Position numbers and translations under genes: made by a program. Shown here piece after piece: positions 49,304-51,031 of a DNA stretch of 64,000 nucleotides (its first letter is position 1; each line of letters begins with the position of its first letter). The stretch is taken from the NCBI RefSeq assembly GCF_008838325.1, contig NZ_CP042829.1:2542001-2606000 (forward strand). The letters run 5' to 3'. Source of the stretch: Tepidiforma bonchosmolovskayae. GTDB lineage: Bacteria > Chloroflexota > Dehalococcoidia > Tepidiformales > Tepidiformaceae. The notes under the pieces were generated by a model. It was not told the origin of the DNA and did not search any database. It worked only from the letters and a program-made list of their open reading frames with translations.

Positions 49304-49424
49304 CGGCAGGCGAGGCTAGCAGAACCGGAGGGGCCTCCGCAGCCCGGTTTGACGGGCGCTGTGGGCGTCCGTAGAGTCCGGCGGCGAAACCGTCCCCACT
49401 CTTGGCGCAGACAGGAGCAGCTGC

Positions 49425-50618
49425 ATGGTCACACAGCGGCGAGATGCCGCAATCGTTGGAATCTACGAATACCCGAAGCGGAAGGCCCCCGGCGTGACGC
49501 CCCTGCAGATCAAAGCGGAGTGCGCCGCCCGGGCGCTCGAGGATGCCGGTCTTTCCTGGAAAGACGTTGATGGGCTGTACGACGCCCAGGACGGTGCCGG
49601 GATGGCCGGCCTGAGCCTCGCGGAGTACTTCGGCTTCAGGCCGAACGTCATCGATACCACCGCCGTCGGCGGGAGCTCCTACGAGTTCCACGCCGCCCAC
49701 GCGAAGCGGGACATCGCTGCCGGCCGCTGCAGGGTCGCCCTCCTCACCTACGGTTCGACGGCGCACAGCGACGCGCGCCGCATCGGAACGATGCCCGGGA
49801 TGGGCGGCGGTGCGCCGAGCCCGCTCTCGAACATGACCGACCCGTACGGCATGACGCTCATCGCCAACTATGCAATGGTCGCGCGCCGGCACATGCACCA
49901 GTACGGCACGACGAGCGAGCAGCTCGCCCGTATCGCCGTTGCCACCCGCGCCCACGCGATGCGGAATCCGCAGGCTGTCCAGGCGATGACCGACCTTGAA
50001 TTCCAGGACATCCGTGAAATCACGGTCGACGACGTAGTGAATTCGCGCATGATCGCCGATCCACTCCACCTGCTCGACTGCTGCATGGTGTCCGATGGCG
50101 GCGGCGCGGTCGTCATTGCAGCGCCCGAGGTTGCCCGCGACTGCCGGAAGAAGCCCGTCTGGATCATCGGCGCCGGAGAGGCGACAAGCTATTCCGAGAA
50201 CGGCAGTGACATCACGATCAGCGCCGCGGCGCAATCTGCTCCGCGCGCCTGGGCCGAGGCCGACGTCCGCCCCGACGAAATCGACGTCGCGATGATTTAC
50301 GACTCGTTCACCATCACCGTCCTCGTGATGCTCGAAGACCTGGGCTTCTGCAAGAAGGGCGAAGGCGGGGCCTTCGTCTCCGAGCAGCGCCTCCGCTTCG
50401 ATAGCCCGCTGAAGCCGGCCCTCAACACCGACGGCGGGGGGCTCAGCTCGAACCACCCCGGCATGCGCGGCATCTTCCTCCTCATCGAAGCGACCCGCCA
50501 GCTGCGCGGCGAGTCGACCTCGCAGGTCCCGGGTGCGCGCCTCGCCGTCGCGCATGGCAATGGCGGGATGCTCGCCACCAGCCACACCGGCGGCACCATC
50601 GTCCTCGCAGGTGATTGA
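49425..50618 (+). CDS. SCP-x/Ltp2-like thiolase-fold protein lacking the catalytic cysteines
   Basis: The 397-residue protein has the thiolase fold of the sterol-carrier-protein-x group: an N-terminal AAIVGIYEYPK, a DVDGLYDAQDG segment, DEIDVAMIYDSFT, and a C-terminal GGLSSNHPGMRG carrying the conserved histidine. The position of the nucleophilic cysteine reads TAVGGSSYEF (S84, S85), and the usual C-terminal CGGGG reads HGNGGM. This makes classical thiolysis unlikely. It resembles proteins that work with a DUF35 partner, such as the steroid-side-chain aldolase Ltp2. The next gene encodes exactly such a partner, 2 nt downstream. Substrate is unknown. Confidence 0.8.
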   Translation: MVTQRRDAAIVGIYEYPKRKAPGVTPLQIKAECAARALEDAGLSWKDVDGLYDAQDGAGMAGLSLAEYFGFRPNVIDTTAVGGSSYEFHAAHAKRDIAAGRCRVALLTYGSTAHSDARRIGTMPGMGGGAPSPLSNMTDPYGMTLIANYAMVARRHMHQYGTTSEQLARIAVATRAHAMRNPQAVQAMTDLEFQDIREITVDDVVNSRMIADPLHLLDCCMVSDGGGAVVIAAPEVARDCRKKPVWIIGAGEATSYSENGSDITISAAAQSAPRAWAEADVRPDEIDVAMIYDSFTITVLVMLEDLGFCKKGEGGAFVSEQRLRFDSPLKPALNTDGGGLSSNHPGMRGIFLLIEATRQLRGESTSQVPGARLAVAHGNGGMLATSHTGGTIVLAGD

Positions 50619-50620
50619 CC

Positions 50621-51031
50621 ATGCCTGACCGTCCCCAACCGCGATTCCCCGAGCCCGATACCCAGCCGTTCTGGGAAGCAACGAAGGAGCACCGGCTGCT
50701 CTACCAGGTCGACCGCGACACCGGCGACGTGGTCTTCTTTCCGCGCCGCCACAACCCGAAAAACGGCTCGTCGAACCTGGAGTGGCGCGAATCGAAAGGC
50801 CTGGGCACCGTCTACACGTTCAGCGTCGTCCGCCTCAACCGCCACCCGGCCTTCGCCGAGCTCGGCCCCTACGCCGTCGCCTACGTCGACCTCGATGAGG
50901 GGTTCCGGATGCTGACGAACATCGTCAACGTGGCCGACCCGACGAAGGACATCTTCATCGGCCAGCGCGTCAGGGTGACCTGGCTCGATCAGTCGACGGG
51001 GATTTCGATTCCCGTCTTCGAACCCGCCTGA
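50621..51031 (+). CDS. DUF35 OB-fold acyl-CoA-binding partner without zinc cysteines
   Basis: The 136-residue protein has the DUF35 layout: a helical start (EPDTQPFWEATKEHRLLYQV), the rubredoxin-like region, then an OB fold (LGTVYTFSVVRL, YAVAYVDLDEGFRMLTNIV, IFIGQRVRVTWLDQ). The four cysteines that normally bind zinc in the first part are missing; the stretch reads FPRRHNPKNGSSNLEW. The ATG at 50621 is 2 nt after the thiolase-like stop, so the two are certainly one unit. DUF35 partners supply an acyl-CoA tunnel for thiolase-like aldolases. Confidence 0.82.
   Translation: MPDRPQPRFPEPDTQPFWEATKEHRLLYQVDRDTGDVVFFPRRHNPKNGSSNLEWRESKGLGTVYTFSVVRLNRHPAFAELGPYAVAYVDLDEGFRMLTNIVNVADPTKDIFIGQRVRVTWLDQSTGISIPVFEPA

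Follow-up and report, generated by a model that had tools for sequence, protein, structure and literature searches.

The closest described relatives of the gene pair analyzed here are two aldolases built from a thiolase-fold subunit and a DUF35 subunit, the bile-acid aldolase CtSal-CtShy (PDB 9myr, PMC12329534) and the steroid aldolase TcLtp2-ChsH2 (PDB 6ok1). For Sal, Tyr302 has been proposed as the base and Cys304 as the acid, the corresponding residues of Ltp2 being Tyr294 and Tyr344 (PMC12329534). The Sal C304S variant was inactive (PMC12329534), and Ltp2 H296 variants retain some activity. In the literature DUF35 subunits count as zinc proteins, and the zinc site of Shy has been suggested to shape how the substrate binds (PMC12329534, PMC6996347); all DUF35 proteins structurally characterized up to 2019 bind zinc (PMC6996347).

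The window is a 64,000-nucleotide stretch of the Tepidiforma bonchosmolovskayae genome, a contig of 2.75 Mb, and the named organisms nearest to it at this locus are likewise Tepidiforma. An earlier note, made from its sequence, had pointed to a thiolase-fold/DUF35 pair akin to Ltp2-ChsH2 in which catalytic and zinc cysteines are both missing. That kinship is borne out, with both subunits lying near Ltp2-ChsH2 and Sal-Shy by sequence and fold. Thiolase-fold/DUF35 aldolases are a known kind of enzyme; the surprising part of this pair is its apparently zinc-free DUF35 subunit.

The gene pair and its flanks

Both genes lie on the + strand, with 2 nt between the stop codon of the first and the ATG of the second. 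The thiolase-fold large subunit, P0001 (49425..50618, 397 aa), is PRK08142/PRK06158-like by its open reading frame, Pfam and NCBIfam profiles, PDB matches and structural model, and the DUF35 small subunit, P0002 (50621..51031, 136 aa), combines OB_ChsH2_C with a degenerate zf-ChsH2 by open reading frame, Pfam, PDB matches and model. Shine-Dalgarno-like sequences on the same strand precede P0001 (AGGAG, 49413..49417, 7 nt before the ATG) and P0002 (AGGTGA, 50609-50614). The preferred start of P0002 is the ATG at 50621, where its orthologs also begin; an alternative listed TTG at 50615 runs into the stop of P0001.

Upstream of the pair, on the opposite strand, are genes for ComEC, RNase PH and DUF1015, then fumarase, and downstream come an NYN-domain protein, an Mrp-type ATPase and, beyond these, dihydroorotate dehydrogenase, alcohol dehydrogenase and argJ. 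The alcohol dehydrogenase, of the zinc type, lies ~4 kb downstream beside dihydroorotate dehydrogenase and arginine genes. Fatty-acid and steroid catabolic genes were looked for in the Tepidiforma flanks and none was found, as the earlier note had stated; the neighbors are housekeeping genes. A functional link to the DUF1015-RNase PH-ComEC block was rejected: this block was seen in no clade but the window's own and is read as vertical synteny. Elsewhere in the genome, ~114 kb from the pair, a FAS1_DH/MaoC-like gene pair (L154 6355-7283, G000:C1 about 2706350-2707280) adjoins a PEP-utilizer-domain protein, a pirin and a CoA-transferase III.

Active-site positions of the large subunit

P0001 matches the Pfam profile Thiolase_C_1 and falls below the curated cut-offs of the NCBIfam models PRK08142 (423 vs 462 bits) and PRK06158 (391 vs 421 bits). 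Its residues were mapped against L012, an SCP2-type thiolase encoded elsewhere in this genome and carrying the motifs NACATGS, LHDCF and GHPLG. The nucleophilic cysteine of L012 aligns with Gly83 in the VGGSSY motif of P0001 (Gly82-Gly83-Ser84-Ser85, 49668..49679, + strand), the GGSS that the earlier note had read at this site, and the alignment rules out that a nucleophilic cysteine had been misplaced. The note was also right that the second cysteine is missing, and wrong in placing its site at the HGNGG glycine loop (residues 377-381, 50553..50567, + strand). As the second catalytic cysteine of SCP2-type enzymes is located in the HDCF loop (PMC12329534), the informative substitution is instead YDSF (Tyr292-Asp293-Ser294-Phe295, 50298..50309, + strand), the equivalent of HDCF in SCP2 thiolases, YDHF in Ltp2 and YDCY in Sal (PMC12329534), in which Ser294 aligns with the cysteine and Tyr292 replaces the histidine. 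The histidine of the thiolase GHP motif is retained as His344 (Asn343-His344-Pro345, 50451..50459, + strand), aligning with the Ltp2 acid Tyr344 and with Gln352 of Sal.

P0001 has the glycine for the nucleophile and the catalytic tyrosine within YDx[FY] that mark the Ltp2 and Sal aldolases (Gly83, Tyr292), and lacks their known second catalytic residues, Ltp2 Tyr344 or Sal Cys304, with His344 and Ser294 at these positions. By the motifs tested, P0001 is neither a cysteine thiolase nor a proven Ltp2 or Sal.

The ortholog family and its selection

A family scan in which each bacterial and archaeal species was represented by a single genome found relatives encoded on 504 stretches. The top 80 of these are 69-96% identical and come chiefly from Gammaproteobacteria and Chloroflexota, and also from Bacillota, Myxococcota, Actinomycetes and Entotheonella; several are metagenome-assembled genomes (MAGs) with weak taxonomic labels. 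One MAG (L102, CAMAVY010000038.1) is titled Klebsiella pneumoniae, a label that is likely wrong; its ortholog groups with uncultured Gammaproteobacteria.

The DUF35 gene directly follows the thiolase gene in 95 distinct ortholog pairs from several phyla, so that the strict two-gene unit seen in the window holds across them, and Gly83, Ser85, Tyr292, Asp293, Ser294, Phe295, His344 and Pro345 are unchanged in all 95. The nucleophilic cysteine of SCP2-type thiolases is accordingly absent throughout (Gly83, 95/95), as is HDCF (YDSF, 95/95), and ordinary thiolase motifs were found in none of the orthologs examined. Absence of the thiolase cysteines is, on these alignments, a mark of the whole family and not of the window pair alone. 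Thus neither observation that the earlier note had named as telling against its reading, a misplaced nucleophilic cysteine or close relatives with thiolase motifs, was made among the sequences compared.

Within the genus, dN/dS ranged from 0.014-0.056 for the thiolase gene and 0.015-0.051 for the DUF35 gene. Invariant motifs combined with such values for the thiolase gene indicate an active site kept by selection, the product of neither chance nor decay, and the strong purifying selection on the DUF35 gene rules out a decaying or pseudogene partner. In three of four same-genus comparisons the zinc-less ribbon shows zero amino-acid changes. In Tepidiforma sp. KatS3mg064 (L017/L093) the thiolase gene is broken by a frame change at residue 100/101; as the DUF35 gene is intact, this is probably an assembly error of the metagenome contig.

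Comparison with known systems

Among PDB sequences, P0001 matched 4u4e best (322 bits), followed by Sal (174), Ltp2 (159) and thiolases (<=125), and P0002 matched Shy-DUF35 (74 bits), ChsH2 (58) and a thiolase DUF35 (25). The AlphaFold model of P0001 (pLDDT 84.8, with residues 336-345 around His344 below 50) matched Sal at Z 48.0, 4u4e at 45.8, Ltp2 at 45.7, the DUF35-bound thiolase 6esq at 45.0 and TbSLP at 44.2; as the score of 6esq nearly equals that of Ltp2, fold comparison of P0001 cannot by itself tell an aldolase from a thiolase. The model of P0002 (pLDDT 93.7), which shows the OB fold and ribbon hairpin, matched ChsH2 of 6ok1 over residues 6-136 (Z 18.0, rmsd 1.5 over 126), followed by Shy (17.6), archaeal Trf (15.4) and the DUF35s of thiolases and acyltransferases (<=13.4). 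Both models match along their full length.

CtSal-CtShy, whose large subunit is the top structural match of P0001 at 33% identity, shares the two-subunit thiolase-fold/DUF35 architecture, the glycine at the nucleophile site and YDx[FY] with its catalytic tyrosine, whereas P0001 has Ser294 for the catalytic Cys304 and His344 for Gln352, and P0002 is separate rather than MaoC-fused and lacks zinc ligands where CtShy has C3H1. TcLtp2-ChsH2, which contributes the top structural match of P0002, shares the architecture, the YDxF loop and a possible acid/base residue at Tyr344/His344; P0001 differs in His344 for Tyr344 and Ser294 for His296, and the pair has neither an igr-type operon nor zinc. The Sphaerobacter "putative thiolase" 4u4e and the NCBIfam families PRK06158/PRK08142 have YDSF and T/NHPG motifs in common with P0001, are 45-49% identical and form one sub-family with it by score, although P0001 lies under the curated cut-offs of both models; our literature search found no published work on the uncharacterized 4u4e, and biochemical studies of members of this family were likewise not found. 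SCP2-type or DUF35-bound thiolases (6esq, 7pxp and L012) share the fold, the DUF35 partnership and the GHP-type histidine, but P0001 lacks the nucleophilic and HDCF cysteines of the SCP2 type and has tyrosine for the HDCF histidine.

Gene context in other genomes

Homologs of ~42-50% identity on annotated plasmids, among them one of a haloarchaeon, lie in acyl-CoA degradation (beta-oxidation) clusters that also hold ligases, CoA-transferases, SDR and ECH proteins. A MaoC hydratase lies within 6-8 kb in 11 of the 16 annotated distant-homolog loci and an acyl-CoA dehydrogenase in 9, as counted from feature tables with no background rate; MaoC beside these homologs recalls the hydratase-then-aldolase order of steroid pathways. 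In Gammaproteobacteria and two Myxococcota, the ortholog pair is followed by an opposite-strand two-gene hot-dog unit (HadB-like plus a FAS1_DH region) at 32 loci, with a PHP-type metallohydrolase at 34 and CoaE at 37. Gene order and distance vary from locus to locus, which argues against pure synteny, yet most of these loci belong to one class, and the gammaproteobacterial MaoC link may be partly vertical synteny. The HadB-like neighbor fits degradation or synthesis alike.

Several further observations were made on these neighborhoods. In L085, L089, L098 and ~30 other gammaproteobacterial loci, the pair is adjoined by a recurring block of MaoC-like, FAS1_DH and PHP metallohydrolase genes with CoaE or a metallophosphoesterase, and the HadB-like protein has, by eye, RFTDHE at the usual hydratase Asp/His motif site. 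In Chloroflexota outside the window's clade (L059, L061-L068, L099, L117, L128, L137, L141), a calcineurin-like phosphoesterase lies just upstream on the opposite strand. CoaE, PHP and metallophosphoesterase genes recur beside the pair, and no mechanism was found that would use them.

Zinc state of the DUF35 subunit

In P0002, Pfam recognizes OB_ChsH2_C and, barely above its cut-off, zf-ChsH2. Its four zinc positions (31, 34, 45, 48) are D, T, N and N, so that all four zinc cysteines are missing, as the earlier note had claimed, and neither C4 nor C3H1 ligands are present. Within the ribbon (residues 27-52, 50699..50776, + strand), alignment and model show both zinc knuckles replaced by turn-like segments, DRDTGD (31-36) and NPKNG (45-49), which suggests a metal-free P0002. 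Our literature search, with most subscription journals outside it, found no published zinc-free DUF35. The window's genome encodes another thiolase/DUF35 pair (L005/L008, G000:C1 about 2145633-2147017), with a YDAF loop and a DUF35 protein also without zinc cysteines (NKQTGKAYFPPRPFDPRD).

C4 ligands are present in 74 of the 95 partners; one partner is C3H1 (L033), two are partial (L089, L114) and 18 are ligand-free, the zinc-less knuckles being turn-like and reading, for example, DRDTGD/NPKNG, DPKTGD/SPYTG, NDATGE/DPKTG or DSDG/STVTG. The earlier note had called the pair one step further diverged than Ltp2-ChsH2; this holds for the zinc-less DUF35 side and not for the pair as a whole, whose thiolase active site is invariant family-wide and most of whose orthologs have C4 partners. 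The spacing of the Shy finger, C-x3-H-x8-C-x2-C, is described as unique to Shy; it occurs in L033, a member of the ortholog family studied here, and also in L001/L010 of the window's own genome (about 2280664-2282247), L010 being a Sal-like YDCY protein.

In order to map the zinc state onto a phylogeny, a tree of the thiolase subunit was used, as the trait is not contained in the sequences of that tree. The zinc-less state costs 5-6 changes on it, at least three of which are forced by well-supported branches, and a DUF35 tree built without the ribbon columns gives 5. Constraining the zinc-less sequences together cost 192 log-likelihood units (AU p 2.5e-49), by which one ancestral loss for all zinc-less Dehalococcoidia is strongly rejected. 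A single loss in the Tepidiforma-like set alone was not rejected (AU p 0.10), and one loss with regain is inseparable from several losses in that clade. Change counts alone do not separate loss from gain; we infer loss because C4 occurs in distant homologs and other phyla. It is thus well supported that DUF35 zinc was lost repeatedly and independently beside an unchanged catalytic subunit. No thiolase residue was found that clearly tracks the zinc state in the two Chloroflexota clades alike, and zinc loss is, as judged from the alignments, separate from the loss of the thiolase cysteines and leaves the aligned active-site positions unaffected.

Proposed function and alternatives

The reading toward which we lean, with some reserve, is that the pair forms an alpha-beta-beta-alpha complex whose aldol chemistry would form or cleave the bond between C2 and C3 of a 3-hydroxyacyl-CoA, with no covalent acyl-cysteine. 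Two thiolase-fold subunits would be flanked by two DUF35 subunits, and the CoA thioester would sit in the thiolase cleft. Tyr292 may take the proton from the 3-hydroxyl, as proposed for Sal Tyr302 and Ltp2 Tyr294, and cleavage of the C-C bond would release an aldehyde or a ketone and leave an acyl-CoA enolate, which His344, at the site of the Ltp2 acid Tyr344, might protonate or whose oxyanion it might hold, possibly helped by Ser294. As Sal C304S is dead, Ser294 was not equated with the cysteine and the acid role is given to His344. DUF35 would serve for structure and docking, with beta-turns holding its ribbon in place of zinc. In support of an aldolase, both subunits have their best PDB sequence match outside 4u4e in an aldolase subunit, and glycine occupies the nucleophile position in every ortholog, as in Sal; against it stand the similar fold scores of 6esq and Ltp2, the low-confidence region around His344 and the lack of catabolic neighbors in Tepidiforma. 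The earlier note had proposed an aldolase or an acyl-CoA-handling enzyme; the first stands as the leading guess, and the second is backed as far as homology and the context of distant relatives reach.

A cysteine-independent Claisen-type or decarboxylating enzyme, which would hold acyl-CoA noncovalently and condense, thiolyse or decarboxylate 3-ketoacyl- or malonyl-type CoA esters, is unlikely, though it survives best among the alternatives. It would suit the retained GHP-type His344, the SDR dehydrogenases common in distant homologs' clusters, which would yield 3-ketoacyl-CoA, and the model match to TbSLP, for which weak decarboxylation of malonyl-CoA is reported (PMC12329534); however, both subunits are nearer aldolases, Sal showed no such decarboxylation (PMC12329534), and the aldolase-type tyrosine replaces the HDCF histidine in every ortholog. 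Quite improbable is a catalytically dead scaffold or acyl-CoA carrier, for which PhlA of PhlABC is a precedent as an inactive thiolase-fold subunit (PMC2954200) and with which the missing nucleophile and the absence of nearby pathway genes in Tepidiforma would agree. The invariance of Tyr292, Asp293, Ser294 and His344 in 95 sequences, together with the low dN/dS, exceeds the needs of a scaffold, and unlike in phlABC no active thiolase gene adjoins as a partner.

Equally improbable is that the DUF35 ribbon still binds a metal through Asp, His or Asn (e.g. D31, D33, D36, H44), zinc being exchanged and not lost. Several zinc-less versions do have D-x-x-T-G-D or D-x-D-G loops, but the replacements vary by lineage (NPKNG, SPYTG, NPKTG, DPKTG, STVTG) and resemble standard beta-turns, and the model of P0002 is confident without metal, a weak point as AlphaFold does not model metals. 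A true thiolase with a relocated cysteine can be largely dismissed, as invariant Cys220 (95/95) and Cys309 (invariant in the alignments) both lie outside the catalytic loops and have counterparts in aldolases (Cys-Cys at the place of Cys220 in Ltp2, Cys309 in Ltp2 and Sal), and so are no marker of thiolase activity.

Significance

Returning to the aldolase reading, we tentatively raise the possibility, on balance somewhat doubtful, that the family makes up a third class of thiolase-fold acyl-CoA aldolase, widespread and with a Tyr292/Ser294/His344 site, a non-steroid substrate and a repeatedly metal-free DUF35 subunit; if such a metal-free class is real, DUF35 zinc would be dispensable for the complex. 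The C4, C3H1, partial and zinc-free partners on one unchanged catalytic subunit provide a natural series for probing the role of zinc. Finally, public records annotate the catalytic subunit as a thiolase or acetyl-CoA acetyltransferase despite the absent thiolase cysteines, and its re-annotation would alter predictions of acyl-CoA metabolism for many uncultured marine Gammaproteobacteria and Chloroflexota.
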